Source: Phycisphaerae bacterium (GTDB lineage: Bacteria; Planctomycetota; Phycisphaerae; Phycisphaerales; Phycisphaeraceae). Taken from it: a stretch of 64,000 nucleotides of DNA. The DNA lies in contig JAUHZU010000007.1 in NCBI GenBank assembly GCA_030425705.1, forward strand, positions 1 to 64,000. The letters are read 5' to 3'. Shown in pieces: positions 6,128 through 44,263 of the stretch; the first letter of the stretch is position 1, and each line of letters starts with the position of its first letter. A model generated the notes under the pieces. That model was not told the origin of the DNA. It saw only the letters and a list, made by a program, of their open reading frames with translations, and searched no databases. A program made the translations under genes and the position numbers.

Positions 6128-6461
6128 TTTCTACGCTCACGGATCATCACATCCCCGCTCGATACGCGTTTACAGCGACTCAACGCCTACATGGTAGCCC
6201 CGATTGCCGGAATCGGACCCTGAATGCTACCGCAGGAGACGGGTCACGGTCTGCTTACTTACACGCGATCAGCCGCAATGGGCCAGCGACTCGGTTGGTG
6301 TGACACGGATCATCCATCAGCGGGTGGACCCGATTGGGCGAGCGATGCCCCAAATGAGCGTTGCGGGCTAGCAATCGACCTGGCATCGTCACGGTGACTT
6401 ACCGCCAAAGCGATGCGGTCCGTAGAAAGGAGGTATGGCCTGGGATGCGCCAGCGCGACAA

Positions 6462-6494
6462 GCCACCGACCGGAATCGAACCGGTTTCCTGCGG
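6462..6494 (-). repeat. Third copy of the tRNA-Thr 3'-end att-like sequence
   Basis: These 33 bases match the first 33 bases of the tRNA-Thr(UGU) gene at 44111 (its 3' acceptor arm and T arm, read on the plus strand) except for two adjacent bases. The same sequence is present intact at 13268. It lacks the anticodon and D arms, so it is not a tRNA gene. A scrap of a terminase small subunit follows directly, as it does downstream of the copy at 13268, so I interpret it as the left att site of an older related element. Confidence 0.75.
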
Positions 6495-6502
6495 CAGAGA
6501 CA

Positions 6503-6571
6503 GTGGTTGAAGTCTATATCCAATGCGGCAACGCCACACGCGCGGCGATCGTTGCGGGATACGCCCCCTCG
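6503..6571 (+). pseudogene. Terminase small subunit scrap
   Basis: A 23-residue open stretch, containing GNATRAAIVAGYAPS, matches the signature of the Terminase_2 small-subunit family (a YxxxGNATQAAIxAGYS-type motif) and resembles the intact gene at 14222 (GANGTQAAIRAGYSPRS). The surrounding frame has no family similarity before or after, so only the N-terminal HTH remains. Its position nine bases after the tRNA-derived repeat mirrors the layout of the large element's left end. Confidence 0.6.
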
Positions 6572-7270
6572 TGTAAGTACAGGAGGGCAGGGGTGTTGAA
6601 GCATGCCATACCTCCAGTCGTGAGGTTTGGCCAAACGATTGCCGCGGGAGCATCAACATTCAAACGGCCACTGTTCCGAATGATCGTAAAATAGCGTTTG
6701 GCAGGAGAACCGGAAAACCGAGAGGGAACCGCTAATGCATACTTTGATCTGGGTTTTGTTCTTTTGTCCGCCGGCCGTCCCGCGGAAGCCGAAGACTGTT
6801 TTCCAGTTGCGTCCTGATCCGGTCCAAGGAGCACTCAGCAACCCAAGACGAGCCCCCCCCCGGCGCACGCCTAGGATTGATCAAATCAACTTGCAGCAGG
6901 GTGATTTCCCACGAGCAGAGCCCGGCACTGGACATGACGTGTAGGCTCAGCATTTGCGCGCGGTCTTAGCCGAGGCAGAAGCTGGGCCAGACTCCTCGGA
7001 GTAACCCTGGTTCTTGGTCGGGAGGTCCAACCACTGACTCCCTCCTGAATTCTCGGTCCAGAAGTTGTCAGAGACTCCATCCACCCAAAGATCCAGGCTG
7101 CGACTCCAGTCGGGCTACGCCCTTCTTTCGTCACAGCCTGGGTCTGTTCTGCGATCTTGAACAACTCACACACACCGCCAGACACACAGGCTTTGGGCCT
7201 GCTTGAGTAGCTCCTGATCACTCAGCCGTTGTCGCAGCCACCCGTGCCACGCGGCTTCGCGGCGGCGGCG

Positions 7271-9136: not shown

Positions 9137-9252
9137 GAGAGGTCTCCAAAAGAGGGTTTAGGGGTTGGGGTCCGCCTCTTTATGCGTCAATGACTCTCAT
9201 GCGGGGCCACGGCCAATCAAAAAAATTGTGGTGTTGATAACACAGGACTGGA

Positions 9253-12177
9253 TCAGGGCTCCTGCTCGCTGACGGCACGATATTGGGCTGCCAGTTCGGG
9301 TTTGCCCCATGCGTCGTAGAGGTCTGCCAGGAACATGGCGGTGCGCCGCATGGCCTGGCCGCCGGGCTCATCTAGCTGCATCCGGTAGCTGGTCAGCAGG
9401 TGTTGCTGGGCCCGCTCAAACTGCTGATCAGCCATGGCGTAGCGGCCCGCGTTGCGATGGAGTTTGGCGATGACGGGGTCCGGTAGGGTTTCGGCGCCGT
9501 CTTCAAGGCATTGTTCACCGATGGACAGCGCCTCGGCGTGTTGGCCGACTTCAAAGAGAGCCATGGCGTAGTTGTTGGCTTGGATGATGGTTCTGGGGTG
9601 GGTTGGACCATGGGTAGTTTGCAGACGATCCAGGCCGAGCTTGATCAGCGGCAGGGCCTGTTCGTTCTGGCCCAGATTGCTCAGGGCCACGGCGTAGTTT
9701 TGCTCGGCCTGCCAGACCAGAGGGTGGTCGGGGCCCTGTTGAGCCAGCAGACCCTGGTAGGCTTCGTGTGCGACGCCAACGGCTTGCTCATGGCGATTGG
9801 CGTAGCCCAACTGAACGGCATAGTTGTTCATGGCCAGGAAGGTATCCAGGTGATCGGGGCCAAAGTGCTCACGACGAAGCTCAACGACGCGGCCTGAAAG
9901 TTCGCAGGCCTCATCGTGTCGGCCAAGCGATGACAGGTTGGTGGCGCGAGCCATCATCAGAGACATGGTGGTGGTGTGGCTTTCGCCAAGGGCGTCGCGT
10001 ATCGCGGGCAGCGTCTCGGTGTAGATGCCCTCGGCCTCGTCGTAGCGTCCCTGGATCTCAAGGAGGCTTGCGAGATTGGATAGCGAAATGGCGCTGTCCT
10101 GGATCGAGGCGTTGGGGTCGGCCTGACGTTGCTTGACCACGGCCCTCAGAAGTGATTCGGCCCGGTCGTACTGGTCTTGCTCAAACAGAAACTCGCCATA
10201 GTTGTTCATGTAGGTGAGCGTCAGGGGGTGGGTTGGGCCCAACGACTCGCGGGCCGATTCCACGGTCTCGGCGAACTGTGCGTCAGCGTCCTGGTATTGG
10301 CCTTGGTGGCTAAGCAGCGCGGCTTTCATCATCTGTAAATGCAAGACGACCTCGTTGCCTTGGCCCAAGGATTCCATCGCCAGGGGTAGCTGCTCGTCAA
10401 GCAGCAGGGCCAGGTCTTCGTAGTTTCCGCTTTCATCGAAGATGCTGGCCAAGTGGTTGACGGCTACGAGGGATTCGTAGGCGTCCGGGCCGATGGTTTG
10501 TTCGTACAGGGCGATGGCTTCTTCGATAATGGGCCGGGCCTTGTCGTACTCGCCGATGGAAAAGTAAACCCACCCCAGGGTGGTGTAGATCTCAGCGCGG
10601 GTTCGTGGCTGATTGGCGAAGGTGGTCTCAACCTGCCCCAGGTAGTACTCGATCGTCTCCAACAGGCTGATTCCCCGGCCCAGCACTTCGGGGTCGGCCG
10701 CCCCAAGCATCGTCTGCATGAACTGCGTGACCGTTTGGGCACGCCCTTGCGCCTCAATGGCTTTGTCACGCTCAATGACGCTTTGGGCACGGGCGGCCTG
10801 GGCTTCCTGCTCTCGTGCCTGGGCGATATTGCGCTGGAGCAAGGCCTGGGTGGTGGCGTCGTCTGCAATCACACGTTGTGCCTGGGCCTCGTTGCGAGCC
10901 GTAACCGCCGCTTTTCGCTGGGCTTCGGCGCGCATAAAACCGACGCTGGCGAGGAGGGTGGCTCCGATCAGCAGCAGGACAAAGACGGCGACCCCGGCCA
11001 ACGGGGCGCGGTGGCGTTGAGCAAACTTGGATAGCAGATAACGGGTCGTCGGGGGCCTGGCGGCGATGGGGTCGTTGGCCAGGTAGCGTCGGAGGTCCGC
11101 GGCCAGTTCGCTGGCGGAACCATAGCGACGGGCGGGGTCGTGGGCCATGGCGGTGGCGATAATGGTCTGAAGATCCAGGTCATAGCCCACACCAAGATCC
11201 ACTCTTCTCTCTTCGCTGATGAGCTTGAGCGCGACGGAGATGGGCTTGTTCTTGACATCGACCGGCGGCTTGCCCATGACCAGTTCGTACAGCATGACGC
11301 CGATGGCAAAGACATCGGCGCGCGCATCGGCGACCTGGTCGTTTGCGTTAACCTGCTCAGGGCTCATGTAGGCCAGGGTGCCAAGGATCACACCGGTGGC
11401 GGTGTGGCTGGTGAGGTCAAGATCGTTTTCATCGGTGAATCGCGCAATGCCAAAATCCAGGACCTTTGGCTCCCCGTGGCCATCCACCAGGATGTTGGCC
11501 GGCTTGAGGTCACGATGGATGATGGCTTGCTGGTGCGCCGCTTGAACGGCGTCGGAGACTTTGATGATCAGCCCGAGTCTGTCTTCAATCTCCAAGGCAT
11601 GGTTGCGCGCGTAGGCGGTCAGCGAGCAGCCGTCGACGTATTCCATCACCAGGTAGGGCAGCTTCGAGCCCCCGGCGGAGCGGTAGACACCCGCATCGTA
11701 GATTTGCGCGATGTTGGGGTGCTTCAGCCGGCCCAGGGCCGTGACCTCGCGCCCAAAGCGCATGCGCGTCATGTCGGAGACGCTGCCGGGGCGCAGGACT
11801 TTGAGTGCGACGGTGCGCTTGGGTTGATCCTGCACGGCCGCATAGACCGCCCCCATGCCGCCCTGGGCAATGAGCCGGTTGACGGTGTACCGGCCGATGT
11901 TGGTGTTGATCAGCGCATAGGGATCGCTGTTGTCTTCATTGCCAACACAGGCGTCGAGTTTGGAGTGCAGATGCGATGTCGAGTTGTTGGCTGCCCGAAG
12001 CATCGCTAATGCCTGGCCGATCAGTTCGGTATTGCCGCTCAGGGCTTTGCCAAGTGCCTCTGGCCAGCTGTCTGGATCCAGATCCATGGCATCTGCCACG
12101 GCGTCCTTGAGCAGAACCCAGGTCGGATCAACGGGAGGAGTGGGCGTAGGGTCCCCAGGTGCGTCGATGTCGGTCAT
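9253..12177 (-). CDS. Serine/threonine protein kinase with TPR domain
   Basis: 974 aa. An N-terminal segment precedes a Hanks-type kinase domain: Gly loop around 104-110 (AQGGMGAVY), Lys 126 in VALKV, catalytic loop HRDLKPANIL at 221-230, DFG at 241-243, and activation segment GTLAYMSPEQ. All catalytic residues are present. A TM segment follows at about 391-415, then a coiled coil rich in Ala, Gln, Arg and Glu, then about twelve TPR/NB-ARC-style tetratricopeptide repeats to the C-terminus, presumably exposed outside the membrane. The ECF sigma factor gene lies 43 bp upstream in the same direction. In planctomycetes such ECF-kinase pairs are common, and the kinase is thought to control the sigma factor; here that is inference. 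Confidence 0.93.
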   Translation of the reverse strand: MTDIDAPGDPTPTPPVDPTWVLLKDAVADAMDLDPDSWPEALGKALSGNTELIGQALAMLRAANNSTSHLHSKLDACVGNEDNSDPYALINTNIGRYTVNRLIAQGGMGAVYAAVQDQPKRTVALKVLRPGSVSDMTRMRFGREVTALGRLKHPNIAQIYDAGVYRSAGGSKLPYLVMEYVDGCSLTAYARNHALEIEDRLGLIIKVSDAVQAAHQQAIIHRDLKPANILVDGHGEPKVLDFGIARFTDENDLDLTSHTATGVILGTLAYMSPEQVNANDQVADARADVFAIGVMLYELVMGKPPVDVKNKPISVALKLISEERRVDLGVGYDLDLQTIIATAMAHDPARRYGSASELAADLRRYLANDPIAARPPTTRYLLSKFAQRHRAPLAGVAVFVLLLIGATLLASVGFMRAEAQRKAAVTARNEAQAQRVIADDATTQALLQRNIAQAREQEAQAARAQSVIERDKAIEAQGRAQTVTQFMQTMLGAADPEVLGRGISLLETIEYYLGQVETTFANQPRTRAEIYTTLGWVYFSIGEYDKARPIIEEAIALYEQTIGPDAYESLVAVNHLASIFDESGNYEDLALLLDEQLPLAMESLGQGNEVVLHLQMMKAALLSHQGQYQDADAQFAETVESARESLGPTHPLTLTYMNNYGEFLFEQDQYDRAESLLRAVVKQRQADPNASIQDSAISLSNLASLLEIQGRYDEAEGIYTETLPAIRDALGESHTTTMSLMMARATNLSSLGRHDEACELSGRVVELRREHFGPDHLDTFLAMNNYAVQLGYANRHEQAVGVAHEAYQGLLAQQGPDHPLVWQAEQNYAVALSNLGQNEQALPLIKLGLDRLQTTHGPTHPRTIIQANNYAMALFEVGQHAEALSIGEQCLEDGAETLPDPVIAKLHRNAGRYAMADQQFERAQQHLLTSYRMQLDEPGGQAMRRTAMFLADLYDAWGKPELAAQYRAVSEQEP

Positions 12178-12220
12178 GGTTCGCCGATCCGTATGGAGTA
12201 GTGCGGTAGGGGGTTGTCGA

Positions 12221-12787
12221 CTACTCTCCTATGCGTGTCAACAACCATCCACGGGCCACGGACCATTCTCGTTTCACGGTGCGGGGCGAGATTTCCAGTG
12301 TTTCGGCGGTCTGTTCAACCGATAGCCCCGCGAAGTAGCGCAGCATGACGATTTGAGCCATACGGGGGTCCTGGGCTTTCAATTCGTTGAGCGCTTCATC
12401 GAGTGCAAAGACCATCTCGCTGGGGACATCATCCGCCAGGTCCAGGTCGTCCATGCTGACGCGGCCCCGATCACCACCACGTTTTAGAGCGCCTTTCTCA
12501 CGGGCCTTTTCGATGAGGATCCGGCGCATCGACTCGGCGGCGGCCGCGTAGAAGTGTCCCGGGTTATCCCAGGCGACATCGGGGTTCTTCATCAGCCGCA
12601 GGTAAACTTCGTGTACCAGGGCGGTGGGCTGGAGGGTGTGGCCCTGGTTCTCATGACGCATCCGGTGTTGCGCCAGACCGCGGAGTTGGTCATAGACAAC
12701 ATCCATGAGGGTGGGCGTACCGCCGGCATGTGGGGCGGGGGAGACACTGTCTTCGCCGGTCGTGTTCGGGGGGTTGTCCTGGCCCAT
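12221..12787 (-). CDS. ECF-type sigma factor (TIGR02999-like)
   Basis: 188 aa. Region 2 includes VYDQLRGLAQHRM and the helix with LVHEVYLRLM; region 4 (MLRYFAGLSVEQTAETLEISPRTVKREW) is a clear HTH for the -35 element. The ALVHEVYLRL and FYAAAAESMRRILIE patterns are those of the ECF sigma subfamily found with Ser/Thr kinases in planctomycetes and acidobacteria. The kinase gene follows after 43 bp, so co-expression is likely. No ribosome-binding site is visible before the chosen ATG; the leader is C/T-rich. Confidence 0.9.
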   Translation of the reverse strand: MGQDNPPNTTGEDSVSPAPHAGGTPTLMDVVYDQLRGLAQHRMRHENQGHTLQPTALVHEVYLRLMKNPDVAWDNPGHFYAAAAESMRRILIEKAREKGALKRGGDRGRVSMDDLDLADDVPSEMVFALDEALNELKAQDPRMAQIVMLRYFAGLSVEQTAETLEISPRTVKREWSVARGWLLTRIGE

Positions 12788-12989
12788 AAGATGCAGATGA
12801 GGAAGAGGGTGAGTGATCGGATCGACCCGTGCATTCTGTCACAGAACACGGACCCGTTCGGGGTTTTGGGCCCGCCTGCTACGATTGAGTGGGGTACCTA
12901 AGCGTCTAAAAATTCCAAGTCGCCGTGCTCCCATACCCAGGGCTAGCCATCTCAATATACAGCGTACCGACCTTGAACTGACCCGCGCC

Positions 12990-13313
12990 ATGGTCTTCAC
13001 CATGCCGGGGCAATGGAAAGCCGCTGATGTTCCCCGCGAGGACTTGACCCAGGCCCGCTGGCAGTGGCTGGCCGAGCCCGCCGCCCGGGTCGACCCAGCC
13101 GATCGCGGGTGGCACGAGCAATCCGACTCCCTGTCGACCACCAACGCGGAGGGGGGAAACCTTGCCAGCGCATCCACCGACCGATCCGAAGGAGACGGGG
13201 CAGGTAACGACGAAAAAGCCATGAAGACTGCGGGAAGATGCGGAGATGTGCGGCGTGATACGGGAAAGCCACCGACCGGAATCGAACCGGTAACCTGCGG
13301 TTTACAAAACCGC
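12990..13313 (+). pseudogene. Relic of a related tyrosine integrase C-terminus
   Basis: The open frame here reads MPGQWKAADVPREDLTQARW and QWLAEPAARVDP, closely matching residues about 289-320 of the intact integrase at 42689 (MPDEWKVADVLREDLAQARQ, QWLAEPAALMDP). The similarity then jumps from the N-A/V-EG stretch directly to the final stretch before the tRNA-derived end (GDVRRDTGK against EDVRRDAGGNGK). The catalytic His, Arg and Tyr region is therefore deleted. A 10-bp difference just before the tRNA sequence also shifts the frame. This is the dead right end of an older element that used the same tRNA site. Confidence 0.85.
13261..13313 (+). repeat. Left attachment site of the integrated element (attL-type)
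   Basis: 53 bases identical to 44104-44156. From 13268 on it reproduces the 3' 46 bases of the tRNA-Thr(UGU) gene (acceptor, T arm and anticodon stem), so it is the usual duplicated tRNA 3' end left by site-specific integration. The distance between the two copies is 30,843 bp, the expected size of the excised circle. Weaker similarity extends further left because both sites sit at the 3' end of an integrase reading frame. Confidence 0.9.
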
Positions 13314-13504
13314 AAGAGGTGATTCTAAGTAATGCTGGGGCAAGTGTTTCTGGCAATGCGGCGTCGGAGGGTGGCTGTATTGGTAGCAATGCGGCTGGCT
13401 ATGCTCAGCTGGCCATGGTCGTCCAGGCGTGGCATGGTTTATCTCCTGAAAAACGTCGCCGGATCGTGGACCTGACCCAACCGGAATCGACCGAAGCGTC
13501 CTAA
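13314..13504 (+). other. Detached C-terminal tail of the integrase
   Basis: Continuing the integrase reading frame from the identical att core at 44156 into the sequence after 13313 gives an uninterrupted tail of 63 codons ending at the TAA at 13502-13504. It includes AQLAMVVQAWHGLSPEKRRR and then IVDLTQPESTEAS. The frame matches exactly: the last core base plus 13314-13315 makes a Gln codon, followed by GAG and GTG at 13316-13321. In the circular form this would be the true 3' end of the integrase gene. In the integrated state it has no proper start (a GTG at 13319 only) and is probably not translated. Confidence 0.72.
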
Positions 13505-16962: not shown

Positions 16963-17053
16963 TGGGGTACCCCATGGGCAAAATGGGTGGGAGTCTCAGT
17001 GATCAGGATTGGTTGCATTGATCGCGTCCTTGAATGACGATGTCGCTCGCGCT

Positions 17054-20834: not shown

Positions 20835-22442
20835 ATGCCTGACCTGTTGACAGACGGCAATGCCGAGCTGAAATCACTCCTCCTGGATGTGGCCGGCGAA
20901 CGGTCTCTGGAAGGGTTGCTCAAGATGATCGTGTGCCGGGTCGCCGCGATGCCGCACGTGGCGCTGTGTCGCATCTGGCTTGTCAAGCCAGGAGACATCT
21001 GCGGCACATGCCCGCTGCGCGAGGAGTGCCCGGATCACGCGCGTTGCCTGCACCTGGTCGCAAGCGCAGGACAGTCCCTGGACCAAGAGGCGCTGCGCTG
21101 GGATCGGCTAAGCGGAAGGTTCCGCCGTTTCCCGCTGGGCGTGAGGAAGATCGGGCGTGTCGCATCGACCGGCGAAGCGATTGTTGTCCCGGATACGGCC
21201 ACCGACATGCAGTGGATCGCCGACCCGGCATGGGCCGAGGCGGAGGCGATCCGTGGGCTCGCCGCGCACCCCTTGGTTTTCCGTGGAGAGGTGATCGGTG
21301 TCTTCGCGGTATTTACGCGGACGACCGTGGAGATGAGCGAGTTGATCTGGCACCGCATGCTTGCGGATCACGCCGCGGCGGCCATCGTCAACGCCCGGGC
21401 ATTTGATGAGATCGACGACCTCAAGCAGCGGCTGGAGGTCGAGAACGAGTTCCTGCGCGAAGAGATCGCGTCCGAAGGTGCTTTCGGCGAGATCGTCGGG
21501 AGCAGCGCCGCGCTGCGCCGAACGACCCAACAGATCGCGATCGTCGCGAAGACCGACACCAACGTGGTCATCACCGGCGAGTCCGGCACCGGAAAGGAAC
21601 TCGTCGCCCGCGAGATCCACCGGCGCAGCGATCGGTCGGCAGGCCCCATGATCAAGGTCAACTGCGCCGCGATCCCTCATGAGCTCTATGAAAGCGAGTT
21701 CTTTGGGCATGTCGCCGGCGCTTTTAGCGGGGCATTGCATGACCGTGCGGGGCGATTCGAAGCCGCCAACGGCGGGACGCTCTTCCTGGATGAGATTGGC
21801 GAGATGCCGCTCAGCTTGCAGAGCAAGCTGCTGCGCGTGCTCCAGGAGAGCACCTACGAACGTGTCGGCGAGACCAAGACCCGTACAGCGGATGTGCGCA
21901 TCATCGCCGCGACGAACCGAGACCTGAAGCAGGAGGTCGCGGGAGGGCGGTTCCGTGAAGACCTGTTCTATCGACTCAACGTCTTCCCCATCGAGATCGC
22001 CCCGCTCCGCCAGCGCAAAGACGACATCCCCGAGTTGTCACAGAAGCTAACGGCAGACATTTGCCAGCGGCTCAACCGGCCACGGCCCCGCATCACCCAA
22101 GCGGTCATCGCCCAGCTCCAGCGTTACGACTGGCCCGGCAACGTGCGCGAGCTGCACAACATCATCGAGCGAGCGGTGATTACTTCGGCCGGTTCTTCTC
22201 TCCGGGTAGAAGTGCCAACGAATGCTCCCCGCACGAACGCTGCGGACCCGCAACAGGCTCCTCCGGCGATTCACACGGACCAGGAGATGAAGCGGCTGGA
22301 GAGGGAAAACATTGTCCGTGCCTTGGAAGCGACGAACGGTCGAGTTTCCGGGGTGGATGGGGCCGCCGCGCTGCTGGGCATCAAGCCCAGCACATTGACG
22401 TCTCGAATCAGGGCAATGAAGATCCGGCGGGTGCTGAAGTAG
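20835..22442 (+). CDS. Sigma-54-dependent transcriptional activator (GAF-AAA-Fis)
   Basis: 535 aa. The N-terminal GAF sensor (about 20-190) carries a Cys cluster C-x2-C-x5-C-x5-C at 56, 59, 65 and 71 that could hold a metal or Fe-S centre, or act as a redox switch. A short coiled linker (195-215) leads to the AAA+ domain: Walker A GESGTGKE at 248-255, sigma-54 contact loop GAFSGA at 295-300 (Ser replaces the common Thr), Walker [10 protein letters not shown] at about 316-324. The C-terminal Fis-type HTH is at about 480-530. No receiver domain is present, so the signal is a ligand. It faces the redox cluster and its sigma-54 promoter. Confidence 0.94.
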
Positions 22443-30677: not shown

Positions 30678-31013
30678 ATGAAGGTTGCCCTGGACATCGA
30701 CGACACGATCACCCGCCACCCCGCGTTCTTCGCGTTCCTCTCCAAGGCCCTCCTCGACGCCGGGCACGAGGTCGTCATCCTCACCTTCCGCGAGGACCGC
30801 GCGTCCACCGCCGCCGACCTCGCCGGCTGGGGCATCGTCTACACCCACCTCATCACCTCGACGCTCGACGCCCACTTCAAGCACGGCGTCAACGCATGGA
30901 AAGGCGCGATGTGCAAGCAGCACCGCATCGACCTGTTCTTCGAAGACAGCATGGAGGTGCTGCGGCACGTCGATGGGGGGACGGTTTGTTTCTCGCCGGT
31001 GGGGCGGTACTAG
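30678..31013 (+). CDS. HAD-like phosphatase family protein
   Basis: 111 aa, short. The N-terminus VALDIDDTITRHPAFFAFLS holds the DxDxT nucleophile motif; HEVVILTFRE gives the motif II Thr; IDLFFEDSMEVLRHV gives the acidic motif IV ED. A cap domain is absent, so it is a minimal C0-type HAD hydrolase. A GGAG ribosome-binding site precedes the ATG. It ends 62 bp before the helicase start, in the same direction, and could be co-transcribed with the restriction-like operon; a role in it is not shown. Confidence 0.8.
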   Translation: MKVALDIDDTITRHPAFFAFLSKALLDAGHEVVILTFREDRASTAADLAGWGIVYTHLITSTLDAHFKHGVNAWKGAMCKQHRIDLFFEDSMEVLRHVDGGTVCFSPVGRY

Positions 31014-31075
31014 AGCTAAAGATCGACTATTTCCGTAGAGTTGGTATTCTGTTTATCGCTTCTGGAGGATGCCTA

Positions 31076-33970
31076 TTGTCGATCTCACCGTATCAGGCCT
31101 GCTACTTCGCTCACGAGCTCACCCGACTCGGGGCCGTCGGCGAAATGGATCGTTTGGGCACGACGCTCTACGACGCCAAAGTCGACCTGAACCCCCACCA
31201 GATCGAAGCCGCGCTCTTCGCCCTCTCCAACCCATTGCAGAAGGGCGTGATCCTCGCCGACGAGGTCGGCCTGGGCAAAACTATCGAGGCCGGCCTCGTC
31301 CTCTGTCAGAAGTGGGCCGAACGCAAACGCCGCCTGATCGTCGTCGCGCCCGCCCACATCCGCAAGCAGTGGCAGGCCGAGCTCACCGAGAAGTTCAACC
31401 TCCCCAGCATCGTCATCGACCGCCGGATCTTCACCCAGCTCAAACGCGATGGCGAGATCAACCCCTTCGACACCGGCAAGATCGTCGTCGTGTCCTACGG
31501 CTTCGCCGCGCGGATGCAGGACGAGCTCCGCGCCACCCCCTTCGACCTGGTCGTCTTCGACGAGGCCCACAAGCTCCGTAACGCCTACCAGCCCAGCCGC
31601 AAGCAGGGCCAGAAGCTGCGCTGGGCGTTCGAGCCCCGACAAAAACTCCTGCTCACCGCCACCCCCATCCAGAACAGTCTCCTGGAACTCTATGGCCTGG
31701 GCTGGATGCTCGACGAGCACCTCTTCGGCGACAAGACCGCCTTCCAGAGCCGCTACTGCCGAACCGGCGGCGACCTCGAAGGCCTACGCCAACGCCTCAG
31801 CCAGTTCTGCAAACGCACCCTCCGCAAGGAATGCGAATACGTCCGCTATACCCAGCGCCGTGCGATCACCCACCCCTTCACCCAGAGCCGCGAAGAGAAA
31901 CAACTCTACGCCGACGTCCTCGCCTTTACGCAGCGCGACGAAAGCTACGCATTCCCCATGAAGCAGCGCCAGCTCGTCGAGATCGTCGTCTTCAAGGCCC
32001 TCGCCTCCTCGCCCCGAGCCCTCGCCGGCACACTACGCACCATGCTCCACCGCCTCGAAAAGCTCCGCGACGGCCAGCCCGACTTGGACGAAACCAACTA
32101 CTGGGACGCGCTCGCCACCGACGAAGACCTCAACCTCGAAGACCTCGTCGACGACTGGGACGACGACACCGACACCGACGCGCCCCCGCCCATCGACGGC
32201 AAGCTGATCGCCGCCGAGATCAAGGAGCTCACCGCCCTCATTGCCCAGGCCGACGCCATTGACTGCGACAGCAAGTCCCGGGCCCTGCTCACCGCCCTCA
32301 AGACCGGCTTCACCGAGCTCGAAAAGCTCGGGGCCCAGCGCAAAGCCATCATCTTCACCGAGAGCCGCAAGACCCAGGCCTTCCTCGCCCACCACCTCGA
32401 ACACAACGGCTACGCCGGAAAAGTCATCCAGTTCAACGGCAGCAATACCCACCCCCAGGCCAAAGCCGCCTACGAACGCTACAAACAACGGCACGCCGGC
32501 ACCGACCGCTTCACCGGCAGCAAGTCCGTCGATATCCGCTCCGCCCTGATCGAGGCCTTCCGCGACGGGGGCGAAATACTCCTCGCCACAGAAGCTGCTG
32601 CCGAGGGCGTCAACCTCCAGTTCTGCTCCTTCGTCGTCAACCACGACATGCCCTGGAACCCCCAGCGCGTCGAGCAGCGCATCGGCCGGTGCCACCGCTA
32701 CGGCCAGCAGCACGACGTCGTCGTCCTCAACTTCCTCAACCAGGACAACCACGCCGACCAGCGCGTCCACCTCCTGCTCGACGAGAAGTTCAACCTCTTC
32801 GACGGCGTCTTCGGAGCCAGCGACCCCATCCTCGGCGCGATCGAGAACGACATCGACTTCGAGAAACGTGTCCTGAGCATCCTCAAGACCTGCCGCACCG
32901 CCGACGCCATCGAAGCCGCCTTCAACCACCTCCAGAAAGAGCTCGAAGACGTCATCGCCGTCAAGATGGATCGGGCCCAGCAGCAGCTGCTCGACCACTT
33001 CGACGCCGATGTCCACGACCGCCTCCAGTCCCGCCTCAAGGACGCCGAGGTCGCGCTCGACCGCATCCATGAGAAGTTCTGGAAGCTCGCCCATTGGGGC
33101 CTGCACGACCGCGCGACGTTCGACGAAGCCCGCTACAGCATCACCCTTGACCACCCCCCGACACCGGACATCCCCGCCGGGTCCCACCGCCTCATCTCCG
33201 CCGTCAAGGCCGACCCCCACGACGCTTCCGGGGGCGGGGGCGGGGGCGGGGGCGGGGGCCACCTGCTCCGCCTCTCCAGCCCCCTGGGTAGCTGGCTGCT
33301 CGACACCGCCAAAAACCAGGACCTCCCGACCGCCGAACTGTGCTTCGACCTCTCCGCCCACGACAAGAAAATCAGCATGCTCGAGCCGCTTAAAGGCCGC
33401 GCCGGCTACCTCCGCGTCGAACGGCTCCTGGTCCACACCGACACGGAGGAAGACTTCCTCCTGGTCAGCGGCGTCACCGACGACCTCAAGAGCGTCGACG
33501 TCGAACGCATCCAGCGCCTCTGGGACCTGCCCGCCACCTCCCCCGGCCCCTGCGACCTGCCCCCGGCCGCGGACGCCCGGCTGACCGAAGAGCTCCGGCA
33601 GCACCGCCAGAGCACCCTGCTCAAGCACAGCGAGGGCGTGGGCAAACGGGTCCAACAGCTCCAGGAACAGTTCGAGCAGTGGGCCGAGGACAAGCTCGAC
33701 CCGGAGAAGAACAAGCTCGACGAGCTCCGCGCCCAGAAACGCGCGCTCCGCCGCCGGGCCCGCTCGGCCAGCACCGTCGACGACCAGCTCGACAGCCAGA
33801 CCCGCGCCCGCGAGGCGGAAAAAGCCATCCGCCGGCAGGAAGCCCGTATCCACGCCCTCGAAGACGAGCTGGACGACAAGCTCGACGCCATGCTTGATAA
33901 GCTCCGCAACGCCAGCCAACAAAAGACCCAGCCCCAGACCTTGATGACACTCAAGTGGAAGCTCGTCTAA
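31076..33970 (+). CDS. SNF2/HepA-like helicase of a restriction-type operon
   Basis: 964 aa from a TTG at 31076 with GGAGGA six bases upstream; the open frame extends further upstream but overlaps the HAD gene. Superfamily 2 motifs: DEVGLGKT at 62-69, VVFDEAHKLRN (DEAH), LLLTATPIQNS (motif III), then ATEAAAEGVNLQFCSFVVNH, VEQRIGRCHRYGQ (motif VI). The C-terminal third has a run of ten Gly (719-728) encoded by a hexanucleotide repeat, then a long charged coiled coil. Mod and Res genes follow within 42 and 15 bp. An extra SNF2 helicase beside Type III-like Mod/Res recurs in bacterial genomes to my knowledge, and a defence role is likely. Confidence 0.88.
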   Translation: MSISPYQACYFAHELTRLGAVGEMDRLGTTLYDAKVDLNPHQIEAALFALSNPLQKGVILADEVGLGKTIEAGLVLCQKWAERKRRLIVVAPAHIRKQWQAELTEKFNLPSIVIDRRIFTQLKRDGEINPFDTGKIVVVSYGFAARMQDELRATPFDLVVFDEAHKLRNAYQPSRKQGQKLRWAFEPRQKLLLTATPIQNSLLELYGLGWMLDEHLFGDKTAFQSRYCRTGGDLEGLRQRLSQFCKRTLRKECEYVRYTQRRAITHPFTQSREEKQLYADVLAFTQRDESYAFPMKQRQLVEIVVFKALASSPRALAGTLRTMLHRLEKLRDGQPDLDETNYWDALATDEDLNLEDLVDDWDDDTDTDAPPPIDGKLIAAEIKELTALIAQADAIDCDSKSRALLTALKTGFTELEKLGAQRKAIIFTESRKTQAFLAHHLEHNGYAGKVIQFNGSNTHPQAKAAYERYKQRHAGTDRFTGSKSVDIRSALIEAFRDGGEILLATEAAAEGVNLQFCSFVVNHDMPWNPQRVEQRIGRCHRYGQQHDVVVLNFLNQDNHADQRVHLLLDEKFNLFDGVFGASDPILGAIENDIDFEKRVLSILKTCRTADAIEAAFNHLQKELEDVIAVKMDRAQQQLLDHFDADVHDRLQSRLKDAEVALDRIHEKFWKLAHWGLHDRATFDEARYSITLDHPPTPDIPAGSHRLISAVKADPHDASGGGGGGGGGGHLLRLSSPLGSWLLDTAKNQDLPTAELCFDLSAHDKKISMLEPLKGRAGYLRVERLLVHTDTEEDFLLVSGVTDDLKSVDVERIQRLWDLPATSPGPCDLPPAADARLTEELRQHRQSTLLKHSEGVGKRVQQLQEQFEQWAEDKLDPEKNKLDELRAQKRALRRRARSASTVDDQLDSQTRAREAEKAIRRQEARIHALEDELDDKLDAMLDKLRNASQQKTQPQTLMTLKWKLV
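33230..33259 (+). repeat. Hexanucleotide repeat (GGGGGC)x5 inside the helicase gene
   Basis: Five perfect units GGGGGC encode ten consecutive glycines between two domains of the helicase. Whole-unit slippage changes the length by Gly-Gly pairs without a frameshift, whereas slippage in one G5 run would shift the frame. It may be a length-variable linker or a phase-variation site. Confidence 0.85.
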
Positions 33971-34012
33971 GCCATACCCCCCGCCCCCGGAAGTCCAGAC
34001 AAGAAACGCGAC

Positions 34013-36109
34013 ATGCCCAACACGCCAGAACCCCCCGACACCCCGGAGAAGCTTGACGGCCGGTCCCTGGACCTCCGCGCCCAGCGCCTCGACGCGCTCA
34101 AGGCCGTCCTCCCCGAGGCCTTCGACCTCGACGGCAACCTCGTGCAGGACAAGCTACTCGCCGCGCTCGAGCCGGTCAGCTACGAAGCGACGGACGATAT
34201 CCCGACGTTCGGCCTCGGCTGGCCGGGCAAGCAGCAGGCCTTCGCCGCCGCCGGCGTGCCCACCACCGCCACCCTCCGGCCCGCCCCCGATGAATCGGTC
34301 GACTTCGACACCACGCAGAACCTGCTCATCCAGGGCGACAACCTCGAAGTCCTCAAAACCCTCCAACGCAGCTACCACGGCAAGGTCAAGATGATCTACA
34401 TCGACCCGCCGTACAACACCGGCAAGGACTTCGTCTACCCCGACAACTACGGCGAGGGGCTCGACACCTACCTGAAGCGCACCCAGCAGAAAGACGAAGA
34501 CGGCTTCTGGACCTCCACCAACTCCGAAACCTCCGGCCGCAAACACGCCAACTGGCTGAGCATGATGGCCCCACGCCTGACGCTAGCGCGGAATTTATTG
34601 CGGGATGACGGTGTGATTTTTATCTCAATTGGTGAAGATGAAAGCGCGAACCTGAGACTACTTTGCGATGAAGTTTTTGGTTCCGAAAATTTCTGCAATA
34701 CCTTGGCAGTAGAAATGTCAACTACTTCTGGGCCAAAAACTGTTAACGCGCAGCAGGGGACTATCGTTAAGAATATCGAATATGTGCATGTCTACAAGAA
34801 ATCGTTGCAGTTCGAATCTAACCCGAGGACACCTCTTTTTGACAGTATCGACGCTTACGATACTCACTACTCAATTTGGATGCATGAGGACGGGACTCTC
34901 GGCAGCCTGTCTGAGGCGATGATGCACAATGATCTTGTTAGAAAAGATGTCAAAAAGTTTGGCTTCGAAAAAAATGGGAAGTTCAGCATCAAGAATATGG
35001 ATAAACTGTTTGCTGTATCCGAGACAGCGAAGGCATTTGTCAAAGAGAATCTTTCCAAGATTGCTAGCGTCGATCGCCCTCCCGTATCGGCGGAGGGCGA
35101 ATCGCCGGAGTTTGGTCGTTGGGAGACTTTCGAAGCTGATCATAGAGTGTACTACCTTACAAGGCTCGAGAACGGGAAGCTTAGAGCTTTAATGCCTCTA
35201 GCAATGAATTACCGCACGTCGGACGACTATCGACCCAGATTTGGGCGGACAGTTATTCGCGGAGATTTATGGAAGGGTTTTCATCAAGATATGGGCAACG
35301 TAGCGAAAGAAGGAGGTCTTTCTTTTGAGAATGGCAAGAAGCCCATTCGTTTGATCAGCCAGCTTGGCAAGTGGGCGACGTTGCAAAAAGACGACATAAT
35401 GCTTGATTTCTTCGCAGGGTCTGGAACAACAGGCCATGCGGTAATGGCTCAGAATGCCGAAGACGGAGGGAATCGAAGATATATCACGGTACAACTGCCC
35501 GAGCCACTCAAAGATAAGAAAAATAACTGTATTCAAGTAACACTGGACGACGGCGTGGTGTGCGAGACGATCTTCGACCTCACCCGTGAACGCCTCAAGC
35601 GGGCCGGCCGGAAGATCAAGGCCGAGGCCGGCCTGAACGCGGAGAAGCTCGACACGGGGCTGCGCGTCTTCAAGCTCGATTCGAGCAACTTCACCGCGTG
35701 GAACGGCGACCCGGCGCCCAGCGAGGGCGAGCTGTTCGAACGGCTGGAGAAGCTCGCCGACCACACCGTCCCCGGCAGAAGTGAGAGCGACATTCTGTGG
35801 GAGATGCTGCTCAAGATGGGGCTACCGCTGGACCTCAAGCTCGAACAGTTCACCGTCGAAGGGGCCCCCGGAGTCCACTTCATCGGCGTCAACGACCGCA
35901 CCCGCGTGGTCAGCACGCAGCCGGCCATCCCGGTGGCGGCGTTCGAGGCGCTCCTGGACACGCCCCCGGAAGAAGGCGGCCCGCCCGCCGAGCTGGTCGT
36001 GCTGGACTCGGCCTTCGAAGACGACACCGCCCGCGCCAACGTCGCCACGCTCTACCGGCAACGCCGGGACGAGGACGGCAAGCCCCTGTGCAACCTCAAG
36101 GTGGTCTAA
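34013..36109 (+). CDS. Type III-like site-specific DNA-adenine methyltransferase (Mod)
   Basis: 698 aa. Catalytic motif IV DPPYNTG lies at 131-137, preceded by NLLIQGDNLEVLKTLQRSY. AdoMet-binding motif I (DFFAGSGTTGHA) is at 465-476. DPPY before FxGxG is the beta-type order of Type III Mod N6-adenine methyltransferases. The region between them holds the presumed target-recognition domain. The stretch 34590-35545 is sharply AT-richer than the rest of the gene, so that part was probably exchanged. It modifies self DNA so that the Res partner does not cut it. The Res gene follows after 15 bp. Confidence 0.93.
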   Translation: MPNTPEPPDTPEKLDGRSLDLRAQRLDALKAVLPEAFDLDGNLVQDKLLAALEPVSYEATDDIPTFGLGWPGKQQAFAAAGVPTTATLRPAPDESVDFDTTQNLLIQGDNLEVLKTLQRSYHGKVKMIYIDPPYNTGKDFVYPDNYGEGLDTYLKRTQQKDEDGFWTSTNSETSGRKHANWLSMMAPRLTLARNLLRDDGVIFISIGEDESANLRLLCDEVFGSENFCNTLAVEMSTTSGPKTVNAQQGTIVKNIEYVHVYKKSLQFESNPRTPLFDSIDAYDTHYSIWMHEDGTLGSLSEAMMHNDLVRKDVKKFGFEKNGKFSIKNMDKLFAVSETAKAFVKENLSKIASVDRPPVSAEGESPEFGRWETFEADHRVYYLTRLENGKLRALMPLAMNYRTSDDYRPRFGRTVIRGDLWKGFHQDMGNVAKEGGLSFENGKKPIRLISQLGKWATLQKDDIMLDFFAGSGTTGHAVMAQNAEDGGNRRYITVQLPEPLKDKKNNCIQVTLDDGVVCETIFDLTRERLKRAGRKIKAEAGLNAEKLDTGLRVFKLDSSNFTAWNGDPAPSEGELFERLEKLADHTVPGRSESDILWEMLLKMGLPLDLKLEQFTVEGAPGVHFIGVNDRTRVVSTQPAIPVAAFEALLDTPPEEGGPPAELVVLDSAFEDDTARANVATLYRQRRDEDGKPLCNLKVV
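34590..35545 (+). other. AT-richer exchanged segment in the Mod gene
   Basis: The GC content drops abruptly inside an intact reading frame: 34621-34680 has 25 G/C in 60 bases against 43 in 60 at 34081-34140. Codon choice changes from C/G-ending to A/T-ending and returns near 35545. The segment spans the presumed recognition domain and motif I, so allelic replacement by recombination is the simplest explanation. Boundaries are approximate. Confidence 0.75.
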
Positions 36110-36124
36110 CCCCCGGATTTCTCG

Positions 36125-39100
36125 ATGTCTGATGTCACCTTCCAGTTCGACCCCAAACAACAGTTCCAGCTCGACGCGATCGACGCGGCGGTCAAGCTGT
36201 TCGACGGCCAGCCCCGCAGCGGGGACGCCGGGGGCGCGTTCTCCCTGAAGGTCGGCGGCGGGACGGGCGCGGGGCTCTACCAGCACGCCCTGGGCCTGGG
36301 CAACCGGATGACGATCACCCGCGAGCAGGTGCTGGACAACCTCCGCAAGGTGCAGGACCGCCAGGGGCTGATGCCCGACGCGACGCTGATCCCTGCCGAC
36401 CCGGACGACCCGGCCGCGCCGGCCCCGATGAACTTCACCGTCAGCATGGAGACGGGCACGGGCAAGACCTACGTCTACCTCCGCACCATGCGCGAGCTGC
36501 ACGCTCAGTACGGCTGGAGCAAGTTCTTCATCGTCGTCCCCTCCGTCGCCATCCGCGAAGGCGTCAAGCAGAGTCTCAGGGACACCGACGCCCACCTCCG
36601 CCGGCTGTACCACGGCGATCCGATGGACTTTTTCGTCTACGACGGCAAGAAGCCGACCGAGCTGGCGGCGTTTGCCCGCAACAGCTGCCTGTCGGTGTGC
36701 ATCATCAACATCCAGGCCTTTATCAAGGACGCTGAGATCGACAAGAAGACCGAGGAAGAGCAGACCAAGGAAAAGAAGGAAAGCCGTAACGTCATCTACA
36801 AGCCCCAGGAAGACCTGCAGGGCAAGGCCCCGATCGAGTTTGTCCGGGCGTGCCACCCGATCGTGGTCATCGACGAGCCCCAGAGCGTGGACAACACGCC
36901 CAAGAGCAAGCAGGCGATCCGCCGGCTCAATCCGCTCTTCAGTCTGCGCTACTCGGCGACGCACCGCGAGCCGTACAACATGGTCTACGACCTGGGCCCG
37001 ATCGAGGCGCGGCGCAAGGAGCTGGTGAAGGGCATCGTGGTCACGTCGGTCCGCGAGGGCGGGCTGCCGACGGGCGCGGTGCTCAAGTGCGTGCGCGTGG
37101 GTTACAAGGGCAGGGCGAAGACCCCGAGCGCCGACCTGGAGCTGCTGGTGCTGGACGCGAAGGGGACGCCGAAGCTGAAGAAAAAGAACGTCAAGGGCGG
37201 GGAGCAGCTGGACGCGGACGGCGTGACCAACGGCAACACCGCGTACACCGGCATGCGGGTGGACGGCATCTCGATGGACAGCGGTGTCGAGGTGAGCATC
37301 CACGGCCAGCCGCACTACTTCGCCGAGGGGCAGGGCGTCGGCCAGGTGGACGAACACGTGCTGCGGGCGATGGTGGAGAAGACCGTCGAGAAGCACCTGC
37401 TCAAGGAGAAGCAGCTGGCCGAACGGTTGGCCATCGGCAAGGACGCCGCTATTACTTCCGGGCGCGGGGGCGACGATGCCGACCGCCGCATCAAGGTGCT
37501 GTCGCTGATCTTCCTCGATAAGGTCGCGGACTACCGCAAGTACGACAAGAACGGCAACCCGACCCCTGGCAAGGTGGCCGAGTGGATCGAAGCGGCTTTG
37601 AACAAGTTCCGCAAGCAGGACCGGTTCGCGGGCCTGCCGGCGTTGCGTCACGACAACGCCAGACTGCACGACGGCTACTTCGCCCAAGACAAAAAGGGTC
37701 GGGCCAAGGACACCAGTGGCAAGACGCAGGCCGACGAGTCGGCCTACGAGCTGATCATGCAGAAGAAGGGCGAGCTGCTCGATCCCGACACGCCGCTGCG
37801 GATCATCGTGAGCCACTCGGCCCTGCGGGAGGGCTGGGACAACCCCAACGTCTTTCAGATCTGTAAGCTCGGCGGGGCGCAGACGACGATGCGGCGGCGG
37901 CAGGAGCTGGGCCGGGGCCTGCGCCTGCCGGTAGACGCGGGCGGCGTCCGCATCCGCGACCAGGTGATCAACGAGCTGGCGGTGGTCGGGGCCGAGGACT
38001 ACACGTCGTTCGCCCGCGGCCTGCAGCGCGAGTTCCAGGAGGAATGCGGCGTGGCGTTCGGGGTCGTGCTGCCGCGTGCGTTCGCCGAGTTGGAGACGAA
38101 CGACGGCCCGATCGGCTTCGAGAAGGCCCGCACGTTGCATCAGGAGTTGAAAGACGCCGGGCTGCTGGACGCAGACAACCAACTGGTCGAAGACCCGGAC
38201 TTCCGGGGGATGCCCGGCAAGCTGTCCGAGACGTTCCGCCCATTCAGCACCGAGATCGAGAAGATCCTGCTCGAACACCGGATCGAGCACCACGTCCGGC
38301 CGGACAAGCCCCGGACCACGCTCAAGCTCAACAAGACGCTCCTGGACCACCCCGCGTTCAAGGCGATGTGGGACAAGGTGTCGAGGAAGAGCCGGTACTG
38401 CCTGCGCCTGGACTCGGACAAGCTGAAGAAGGAAGCGGCTAAAACACTCAAAGACCACTTCGCCGTCCACGACATCAGCCGGAAGATCAAGACGACCACC
38501 AGCGGTCTGAAGGTCTCGGCGAAGGGTGTGACGTCCGGGGCAGTCACCGAGAACCGAGTGGTACCGGTCGATTTCGCCGAGCGCCTTCCCGACCCGCTGG
38601 GCTACCTCGCCGCGCGGATCGACCTGAGCCGAGCCACGCTGTCGAACATCCTCATGGACTCCGGCACGTTCGGCGAGTTCAGCAAGCACCCGGCCCGATA
38701 CCTCGAAGACTGCACCCGCCTGATCCGCCACACCCTCTCGGCCGAGCTGGTCGAGGGCGTGACTTATGAGCCGATCGAAGGGTCGTGCTACGAGCAGCGC
38801 CGGCTCAGCGAGCTGGACGGCAAGGAGGTCCACCACAGCCTCGACCGTATCGTGACCCTCGACATCGAAGACGGCGAGCCGCTACGCAGCCTGACCCAGC
38901 CGGTGGCGGTGGACTCGGGCGTGGAGTTCACGTTTGCGCAAGATATGCAGAACCGCACGGACGTCCTGTGCTTCGCCAAGCTGCCGGGCGCTTTCAGGGT
39001 GCCCACGCCCGTGGGCGACTACAACCCCGACTGGGTGATCATCAAGAAGGACGGCCGGGACGAGCCCAAGCTGTACCTGGTCCGTGAAACCAAAGACACG

Positions 39101-39214
39101 CTGGCCGAGGAAACCCTGAGCGAGGGCGAGCGCTACAAGATCCGCTGCGCACGCAAGCACTTCGAGGCCCTGGGCGTCGACTATGCGGTGTGCGTCACCT
39201 CGGATCAGGTCTAG
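36125..39214 (+). CDS. Type III-like restriction subunit Res (DEAD/DEAH helicase-nuclease)
   Basis: 1029 aa. Walker A METGTGKTYVY (GTGKT at 111-115), the DEAD-box equivalent VVIDEPQS, then IIVSHSALREGWDNPNVFQI and the motif VI-like RRRQELGRGLRLPVD. The C-terminal PD-(D/E)xK nuclease has NPDW (Asp at about 969) and LYLVRETK (Glu and Lys at about 988 and 990). All catalytic groups are present, so it should translocate or cut unmodified DNA together with Mod. The gene follows Mod by 15 bp, and it is somewhat longer than many Type III Res subunits. Confidence 0.92.
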   Translation: MSDVTFQFDPKQQFQLDAIDAAVKLFDGQPRSGDAGGAFSLKVGGGTGAGLYQHALGLGNRMTITREQVLDNLRKVQDRQGLMPDATLIPADPDDPAAPAPMNFTVSMETGTGKTYVYLRTMRELHAQYGWSKFFIVVPSVAIREGVKQSLRDTDAHLRRLYHGDPMDFFVYDGKKPTELAAFARNSCLSVCIINIQAFIKDAEIDKKTEEEQTKEKKESRNVIYKPQEDLQGKAPIEFVRACHPIVVIDEPQSVDNTPKSKQAIRRLNPLFSLRYSATHREPYNMVYDLGPIEARRKELVKGIVVTSVREGGLPTGAVLKCVRVGYKGRAKTPSADLELLVLDAKGTPKLKKKNVKGGEQLDADGVTNGNTAYTGMRVDGISMDSGVEVSIHGQPHYFAEGQGVGQVDEHVLRAMVEKTVEKHLLKEKQLAERLAIGKDAAITSGRGGDDADRRIKVLSLIFLDKVADYRKYDKNGNPTPGKVAEWIEAALNKFRKQDRFAGLPALRHDNARLHDGYFAQDKKGRAKDTSGKTQADESAYELIMQKKGELLDPDTPLRIIVSHSALREGWDNPNVFQICKLGGAQTTMRRRQELGRGLRLPVDAGGVRIRDQVINELAVVGAEDYTSFARGLQREFQEECGVAFGVVLPRAFAELETNDGPIGFEKARTLHQELKDAGLLDADNQLVEDPDFRGMPGKLSETFRPFSTEIEKILLEHRIEHHVRPDKPRTTLKLNKTLLDHPAFKAMWDKVSRKSRYCLRLDSDKLKKEAAKTLKDHFAVHDISRKIKTTTSGLKVSAKGVTSGAVTENRVVPVDFAERLPDPLGYLAARIDLSRATLSNILMDSGTFGEFSKHPARYLEDCTRLIRHTLSAELVEGVTYEPIEGSCYEQRRLSELDGKEVHHSLDRIVTLDIEDGEPLRSLTQPVAVDSGVEFTFAQDMQNRTDVLCFAKLPGAFRVPTPVGDYNPDWVIIKKDGRDEPKLYLVRETKDTLAEETLSEGERYKIRCARKHFEALGVDYAVCVTSDQV

Positions 39215-42688: not shown

Positions 42689-44263
42689 ATGGCTTCCAAA
42701 CGAAACAGCGGCGCGGGCACGCTCTTCAAGCTCAACGGCCGGGGCAACTGGTACGCCCAGTGGTTTGACCACCGTGGTAAGCGCTGCAAGGCCTCCACCC
42801 GCACCACCGACAAGGCCGCGGCCCAGCGCATCCTGGCCAAGAAAACAGCCGACGCCGCGCTGATGCGGGAGGGCGTAGTCGACCCCGCTCTGCACGACTT
42901 GGCAAAGCACGCCGACCGTCCGGTGTCCGGCCACCTCGAGGACTACATCCGCAAGCTTACGACCGCCGGGCGGTCGGAGAAGCACATCGCCGGCCACCGC
43001 CGGGCGATTGAAGCTGCGGCGGATGCCGCGGGATGGACGTCCGCCGGCGACATCACTGCCGATGGGCTGAACCAGTACGCCTCGATTCTCCGCGACCAGA
43101 AGCGATCCGCCCAAACGGTCAAGAACCACCTCACGGCGGTCAAGGCGTTCACCCGCTGGATGCTGACCCACCGCAAGCTGGCTTACGATCCGCTCGCCTC
43201 CGTCAAGCTGCCCAATGCAAAGACCGACCGCCGCCGCATCCGCCGGATGCTGCTCGCCGAGGAGTGGACCTACCTCGACAGGGCAACCCGCACCGGTCCT
43301 GAGCGGGAAGGGGTTTCGGGCACCGAGCGGGCCCTGCTTTATGCCGTCGCGATCCAGACCGGGCTCCGAGCCAACGAGTTGCGGACCCTCACCGTGTCGC
43401 GCCTGCATCTGCACGACGACGAGCCGTTTATCTTGGCGAAGGCCAAGAACACCAAGAACCAGCGCGACGCCCGTCAGTACATCCGCCCGGCCATCGCGGC
43501 TGAGCTGGCCGGGCATGTCGCCCGAAAGCTGCCCAACGCGGCCGTTTTCCAGATGCCCGACGAGTGGAAGGTGGCCGATGTCCTGCGCGAGGACCTGGCC
43601 CAGGCCCGTCAGCAGTGGCTGGCTGAACCCGCAGCCCTGATGGACCCGGAGGAACGCCAGCGGCGGGAGGAATCTGACTTCCTCATGGAGACAAACGTGG
43701 AGGGCGAATCCCTAGACCTCCACGCCCTCCGGCATACCTGTGGGGCCTGGCTCGCCGCTAGCGGGGCACACCCCAATGTCGTGAAGTCGGTGATGCGGCA
43801 CAGCTCCATCACCCTGACGATGGACACCTACGGCCACCTGTTCCCCGGCGAGCAGGCCGGTGCCACCGCCGCATTCGACCAGCTCATGCCAGCCACGGTC
43901 ACACACCAGCAAGCCACTGGCACGGCGGGCCAAGCCCCCGAAGAAATTGGTAGCAGTACTGGTAGCAACCGGGGCGCGTTTGGGCGCGAGATTGTGCGAG
44001 CCGATGCGAAGACCAGCCCGCCGGCGTCAGCGCACGCGAGTGACGAAAAACCCTTGAAAACTGCGGAAAAATGCGAAGATGTGCGGCGTGATGCGGGGGG
44101 AAACGGGAAAGCCACCGACCGGAATCGAACCGGTAACCTGCGGTTTACAAAACCGCTGCTCTGCCAATTGAGCTACGGTGGCGGTCGGGCTGGAATGGGT
44201 TTATCGGCTGATAGGGCCTGCCTCCTGATGCGGTCCCTGCCCTCGGGCCTAGTCCCGCTCTGA
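42689..44263 (+). CDS. Tyrosine recombinase/integrase whose 3' end overlaps tRNA-Thr
   Basis: 524 aa as it stands. The SAM-like core-binding domain is at about 80-170; the catalytic domain contains Arg 227 (TGLRANELRTL), a Lys around 251-256, HALR at 345-348, His 371 (MRHSSITL) and nucleophile Tyr 381 (TMDTYGHLF). All active-site residues are present. From codon 474 the frame enters the att core and tRNA-Thr antisense sequence, and residues 490-524 come purely from chromosomal tRNA-side DNA. In the excised circle the frame would instead continue into the 63-codon tail now at 13314-13504, giving 552 aa. It drives integration into tRNA-Thr. Confidence 0.93.
   Translation: MASKRNSGAGTLFKLNGRGNWYAQWFDHRGKRCKASTRTTDKAAAQRILAKKTADAALMREGVVDPALHDLAKHADRPVSGHLEDYIRKLTTAGRSEKHIAGHRRAIEAAADAAGWTSAGDITADGLNQYASILRDQKRSAQTVKNHLTAVKAFTRWMLTHRKLAYDPLASVKLPNAKTDRRRIRRMLLAEEWTYLDRATRTGPEREGVSGTERALLYAVAIQTGLRANELRTLTVSRLHLHDDEPFILAKAKNTKNQRDARQYIRPAIAAELAGHVARKLPNAAVFQMPDEWKVADVLREDLAQARQQWLAEPAALMDPEERQRREESDFLMETNVEGESLDLHALRHTCGAWLAASGAHPNVVKSVMRHSSITLTMDTYGHLFPGEQAGATAAFDQLMPATVTHQQATGTAGQAPEEIGSSTGSNRGAFGREIVRADAKTSPPASAHASDEKPLKTAEKCEDVRRDAGGNGKATDRNRTGNLRFTKPLLCQLSYGGGRAGMGLSADRACLLMRSLPSGLVPL
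44104..44156 (+). repeat. Right attachment site (attR-type), inside tRNA-Thr and integrase
   Basis: 53 bases identical to 13261-13313. It includes the 3' 46 bases of the tRNA-Thr gene and seven bases beyond the tRNA 3' end, and it is also coding sequence of the integrase on the plus strand. Crossover between the two copies would excise a 30,843-bp circle and leave the tRNA intact. Confidence 0.9.
44111..44182 (-). tRNA. tRNA-Thr(UGU)
   Basis: 72-nt cloverleaf: acceptor GCCACCG/CGGTGGC, D arm GCTC/GAGC, anticodon stem GCGGT/ACCGC with loop TTTGTAA (anticodon TGT), T stem ACCGG/CCGGT with loop TTCGATT. No encoded CCA. It is the insertion site of the element, which lies on its 3' side. Confidence 0.97.

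Follow-up and report, generated by a model that had tools for sequence, protein, structure and literature searches.

Tyrosine integrases of phages and genomic islands that target tRNA genes ordinarily carry the phage attachment site (attP) beside the integrase gene (int), not inside it, and the same protein is made in both states. Two described systems place the site within a gene. In archaeal SSV-type elements (type I, or "suicidal"; SSV1, pTN3 and pT26-2), the attachment site (att) lies inside the int open reading frame (ORF), integration splits int by cutting the C-terminal catalytic piece from the N-terminal piece, and the att sites, of 40 to 50 bp, are often in tRNA genes; the sections of the 2021 review drawn on here describe self-disrupting recombinases as exclusively archaeal, call both integrase pieces inactive and state that integration of these elements is not permanent (PMC8371274). 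In mycobacteriophage BPs, attP lies inside a phage gene and integration shortens the C-terminus of its protein, switching the state of that protein; the split gene encodes the repressor, the lost part carries a proteolysis tag, and the BPs integrase itself carries a degradation signal, its gene not being described as split (PMC4557955). We analysed a stretch of 64,000 nucleotides from a Phycisphaerae bacterium (contig JAUHZU010000007.1; hereafter the window) that carries an integrated element of about 30.8 kb, element B, and we consider it very probable that in this element and its relatives attP lies within the tyrosine-integrase gene itself, separating the part for the catalytic domain from that for a conserved tail at the C-terminus, so that integration splits int.

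The features on which this proposal rests are the following.
42689-44263, + strand: chromosomal form of the tyrosine integrase ORF, 524 amino acids (aa), with the catalytic domain at about residues 213-385, followed by a linker, a peptide encoded by the core, and 35 residues from antisense tRNA-Thr plus flank
44103-44156, + strand: int-proximal copy of the att core, 54 bp, which includes the 3' portion of tRNA-Thr and is translated antisense in the frame of int as (N)GKATDRNRTGNLRFTKP
44110-44182, - strand: intact tRNA-Thr(TGT), the target gene
13260-13313, + strand: far copy of the att core
13314-13504, + strand: orphaned integrase tail, 63 codons plus stop, its first codon starting one base inside the core
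13260-44156: element B, about 30.8 kb, carrier of the split integrase

The two core copies are an exact 54-bp repeat (44103-44156 and 13260-13313) with an offset of 30843, a multiple of 3. An earlier sequence-only reading of this DNA had taken a 53-bp core (44104-44156) to be coding sequence of the integrase; the coding assignment stands, whereas the exact repeat is one base longer. When 44156 is joined to 13314, the frame stays open for 63 codons to a TAA stop at 13502-13504, giving a protein of 552 aa with the tail ...AQLAMVVQAWHGLSPEKRRRIVDLTQPESTEAS; the exact phase and product length given by that reading were thus confirmed, as was its assignment of the last 35 residues of the 524-aa form to antisense tRNA-Thr and flank. 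A Pfam scan matched PF00589 to residues 213-385 (E 2.8e-12), with Phage_int_SAM_4 below the cut-off. As the core begins only at about codon 472, the catalytic domain, which stops near residue 385, ends well upstream of it.

The window integrase resembles ordinary tRNA-targeting integrases in its PF00589 domain, in the use of a tRNA 3' end as core and in the intact tRNA gene left at one end of the element. It resembles the SSV-type integrases in that att lies inside the int ORF and integration splits int. However, the Pfam scan of the window protein and of its relative L266 gave PF00589 and not PF16795 (Phage_integr_3), the domain of the SSV type; the catalytic part is kept whole and a tail is lost, instead of the catalytic domain being parted from the N-terminal part; and the host is bacterial, not archaeal. 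SSV family membership was rejected on the different domain and the different half lost: the window integrase works like the SSV type but is no member of it. Nor does attP lie inside a repressor gene as in BPs, the core sitting in int.

Relatives of the window integrase were found in 130 of 151 genomes searched (E 0.001), distant recombinases counted in, and the ORF runs into a tRNA gene in most of the first 30 loci read. We examined 143 integrase hits, duplicates included: a repeat was found with 42, in 72 the stretch contained a tRNA without a repeat, and in 29 a complete tRNA was missing. After removal of duplicates (L192, L207, L211, L248 and L265, identical to G044, G143, G053, G082 and G066b), the 42 rows reduce to 37 distinct elements of 2.4-30.8 kb, among which doubtful pairings (L305, L214 and others) were kept. 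Integrase, core and tail are in one frame in 30 of these 37 elements with a paired att repeat, the window's included; the repeats of the 30 are 23-86 bp long with 83-100% identity. For G107 and G111, the approximate repeat overran the int stop, and the two were counted as open and in frame according to their exact repeats.

The frame is the expected one for 31 of the 33 recognised tails (G059 counted); a binomial test against one-third gives 3.9e-13, a value that overstates the case because the elements are related. Of the 18 type I tails outside model training, the window not counted, 16 are in frame (1.7e-6). As G009, G035 and L222 define a second tail type, their score against their own model is circular; without these three and G059, 27 of 29 type I tails are in frame, the window included (2.5e-11). 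A chance open frame at the far end was rejected as an explanation on the grounds of the common motif in frame.

The cores of the 30 in-frame elements derive from nine kinds of tRNA (Gly, Thr, Arg, Ser, Met, Lys, Ala, Asp and selenocysteine (SeC)) and are read in all three codon phases, once in the sense orientation of the tRNA; the frame must therefore be re-set at each change of target. These observations bear on a passive overlap, in which int runs into the tRNA simply as attP sits just behind it, and the frame at the far end reflects chance or ancestry without function. The antisense strand of a tRNA often has more than one open frame, and in 59 of 80 homologs on genome contigs (a named genome collection of which 80 loci were kept out of 135) the int ORF and a complete tRNA overlap, both of which would be expected from such an overlap. 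Yet chance fails to account for a common motif that 31 of 33 tails carry in the predicted frame, and ancestry alone would not hold the frame through changes of tRNA, phase and orientation; we judge passive overlap to be extremely unlikely. That the tail is kept in frame, although a new tRNA replaces the core residues and can shift the phase, argues for selection.

Among the targets of the family, the selenocysteine tRNA gene rests on an ARAGORN label, at the element L170 (G077) near 16964.

A typical tail reads DPELSALIEVWPDLPESIRAGIAAMV, and most tails carry an AWPxLP-type motif. Across 11 aligned tails, the W and one L are invariant, and another L, a P and an I are nearly so. In leave-one-out searches with a profile hidden Markov model (HMM), 10 of 12 tails were recovered in the expected frame with E 7.4e-9 to 1.5e-18, and for these ten, the remaining frames, the other strand and the left flanks never gave a value below 0.038; the G009 tail was weak (0.11). 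G009 shares the second tail type with G035, L222 and probably G059; by eye, the far ends of these four differ from AWPxLP and show a pair of short repeats that look helical, set around L and R residues.

A search with the tail alone gave matches in 90 of the 151 related genomes. For 40 tail-first tails, hand-picked among the matches listed, mainly on contig size, and including four (L282, L293, L294 and L305) for which an integrase on the same contig was known beforehand, we searched the upstream flank: a tRNA-end fragment (at least 30 bits) lies within about 330 bp upstream in 37 of 40, against 4 of 180 controls, and all 37 fragment alignments start at the tRNA end.

Small regulatory genes are common at element ends, and the position of the tails there would fit a separate small protein, for example an excisionase, with its own start at the left end of the element, its position after the core being mere gene order. 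A role of its own would also be compatible with the lack of a Pfam match at E 0.001 for five type I tails scanned, the window's included (best chance match Ldr_toxin, E 0.41), and of an NCBIfam match for the two tails scanned against that collection. Such a protein would, however, have no need to share the frame of int, as 31 of 33 tails do, and starts are sparse: an in-frame ATG lies within 30 codons upstream of the motif in five of the 40 orphan tails, and a start codon with a Shine-Dalgarno-like sequence was found in two, even though an ATG, GTG or TTG precedes the motif in frame in 22. The shared frame and the few ATG starts disfavour an independent small gene, and the single uninterrupted ORF of a phage form, described below, speaks against it as well, so that we regard this alternative as very unlikely.

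In 74 of 77 tail pairs, there are more silent than replacement differences, although the pairs overlap and are not independent; of the 40 tails, the 24 without a stop in the compared stretch were used, two of them (L290 and L306) being positioned on the wrong W. This excess may be taken as a further, weaker argument for selection.

The sequence-only reading had proposed that homologous integrases be sought with the tail in an unintegrated form, and such an integrase was found. The viral contig IMGVR_UViG_3300025162_000083 (43.2 kb) encodes a single ORF of 574 aa that comprises catalytic domain, core and tail, its core resembling antisense tRNA-Arg when read from the letters by eye. The first and last 127 bases of this contig are identical, which suggests a complete circular genome; no complete tRNA was found in the 21.7-kb stretch searched; and the unsplit int is flanked by a terminase on one side and a helicase on the other. 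A second contig, from a different data set, is identical across 10.4 kb and has the same core and tail.

Another viral contig, L038, shows at 6.8-9.5 kb an integrase, about 1.1 kb of other sequence, and then linker-like, core-like and tail sequence; this is perhaps an unsplit gene interrupted by an insertion.

Tyrosine recombinases share the catalytic set R-K-HxxR-H-Y, and R236, K265, H349, R352, H375 and Y385 of L266 are invariant in a 32-sequence alignment; together with PF00589, these residues place the family among the tyrosine recombinases. The L266 model matches the structures of XerA, Tn1549, lambda and Cre, the structure search having placed the catalytic part only. In the AlphaFold2 model, most of the catalytic part has a predicted local distance difference test score (pLDDT) above 90; the linker (408-536), which contains the core peptide, scores below 50 and is predicted to be disordered; and the tail forms two helices (538-549 and 552-567), a predicted two-helix hairpin with block means of 82-87 for 541-560 and 62 for 561-570, modelled from an alignment whose other rows lack the tail. 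A disordered linker would explain why different tRNAs are tolerated in any phase.

The best rival to a functional tail of this kind is one modelled on BPs, in which the tail would serve mainly as a degradation or stability signal: the long form would be short-lived, and integration would free a stable short form. The final residues of the tails vary between elements, whereas the internal W and L are invariant in the aligned tails, and the unconserved ends argue against an ssrA-like degradation tag as far as sequence can tell; the predicted fold, a hairpin, points the same way. With variable ends, invariant internal W and L and a folded hairpin, the tail looks like an interaction surface and not an end tag, and we consider a role mainly in stability unlikely, while taking it more seriously than the other alternatives.

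Several observations weigh against a family-wide split integrase. The window tail itself scores weakly: with the first models, E 0.024 for 12 sequences (leave-one-out) and E 0.0012 for one sequence, and a moderate 15.2 bits (E 0.0028 among 2646 sequences) against an HMM of 64 tails built without it, which includes the L010 tail, added for its similar look. As a background, 2644 other open stretches of 63 aa were taken from the window, and none reaches 15.2 bits against this model, the best scoring 7.5; used alone as a single-sequence query, the window tail was too weak, returning mostly noise. We conclude that it is a divergent member of the tail family. In addition, 72 plus 29 of the 143 hits bear on no test of the split, and a complete tRNA is not nearby in 14 of the 80 genome-contig homologs. 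According to the sequence-only reading, the tail would be coincidental if homologs ended before the core; int ends before the tRNA in seven of those 80, so that this arrangement does occur, in a minority only.

Among the 37 paired elements, G059 has its tail in the int frame, placed behind a stop five codons past the core, and six further elements do not fit: in G066b, L214 and L243, int stops before the core and no tail is recognised; G038a is a pseudogene without a recognised tail; in G034e, the int and tail frames differ, as if the linker had a frameshift; and in L305 they differ as well. The pairings of L214 (18 bp) and L305 (no exact repeat) are doubtful. Finally, in L010 (its tail spotted by eye), L191 and L233, int is followed directly by a tail in another frame.

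The mixed-frame junctions of L191, L010, L233 and L305 are perhaps tandem or hybrid arrangements, exchanging tails between elements.

The splitting of int, the kept frame, the conservation of the tail and the unsplit form in a phage contig are demonstrated here at the level of DNA sequence. We propose that, in the circular form, int would be one ORF encoding the catalytic domain, a disordered linker, part of which the tRNA-derived core encodes, and a tail folded as a helical hairpin; recombination with the 3' end of a tRNA gene would leave the tRNA intact and split int; the catalytic part would then lie at one end of the element with a short run into tRNA or flank, and the tail would be stranded at the opposite end, in most cases with no separate ATG; and excision would restore the long form. 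The claim of the sequence-only reading that integration swaps the recombinase C-terminus in the manner of SSV, with loss of a non-catalytic tail only, thus finds support in the 30 of 37 in-frame elements, in the orphan tails beside tRNA fragments and in the unsplit phage gene.

Both the long and the short form are presumably translated, the long form being made in the circle. Integration leaves the catalytic residues in place, so that the short form may retain activity; loss of the tail would alter its activity, and the integrated enzyme would most likely be less able to integrate, or to excise unaided. It is plausible, as that reading supposed, that tail loss biases direction or silences excision, in which case the reaction itself would set its direction through loss of the tail. 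More tentatively, self-disrupting integrases could have arisen separately in bacteria of the Planctomycetes-Verrucomicrobia group as a two-state enzyme, long in the circle, where the hairpin drives integration, and short once integrated; the tRNA part would serve as a coding linker, and recombination would replace a directionality factor. We put this broader scenario forward as possible but somewhat doubtful.

By title, the 80 named homologs come from Planctomycetota (51), Verrucomicrobia-type bacteria (18) and others (11), mostly as metagenome-assembled genomes (MAGs); the 11 others include one Lentisphaeria, two Hydrogenedentes, one Alphaproteobacteria and one Actinomycetes MAG, and MAGs can be contaminated. 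None of the 80 has an archaeal host by title. In-frame tails are also present in Verrucomicrobiaceae (L240) and Lentisphaeria (L246) MAGs. A single full-length query searched against known phages and plasmids matched 5 and 16 records, respectively, none with one place that covers 80% of the query. No report of a bacterial self-splitting integrase was found in the open-access PMC literature; two papers, in the parts drawn on here, only cite the archaeal self-splitting work (PMC11078800, PMC11057721).

The proposed system would be a self-splitting recombinase outside archaea: bacterial, with a different Pfam domain, and in a milder form that changes the tail only. Many of the tRNA-like integrase ends and short orphan ORFs seen in these genomes would then be two halves of one gene, which makes the tails usable for locating element ends, and the system offers a ready test of how an element ties the direction of site-specific recombination to its state of integration.

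To the left of element B lie traces of a second, older element, element A.
13014-13313, + strand: 3'-terminal part of a related, older integrase (element A), decayed and continuing into the far copy of the core
6460-6494, + strand: third core copy, imperfect (35 bp, 94%), the probable left end of element A

The decayed end of this related integrase comprises 13014-13153 and 13209-13313, with DNA identity of 73% and 86%, and, together with the third core copy, suggests two elements in tandem. The simplest reading would be that element A, at about 6.5-13.3 kb, is older, and that the 30.8-kb element B was inserted behind it at the same tRNA; 6460-13313 is probably the remnant of element A, bounded by the imperfect core on the left and the decayed integrase end on the right. 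The sequence after the imperfect core reads like what we take to be the start of a terminase small subunit. In G001, of the same genus, a related integrase fragment and core lie at 298.2 kb, 9.2 kb away from tRNA-Thr, and a 46-bp repeat flanks both sides; no relative of the window integrase was found in the 9.2 kb between the fragment and the tRNA.

Among other genes in element B, a sigma-54 activator with a GAF domain at 20835-22442 resembles RtcR/PspF models, and at 30896-39211 a DrmD-like SNF2 helicase adjoins a type III restriction-modification pair (PADLOC E 1.7e-180, 2.8e-152 and 2.2e-223).
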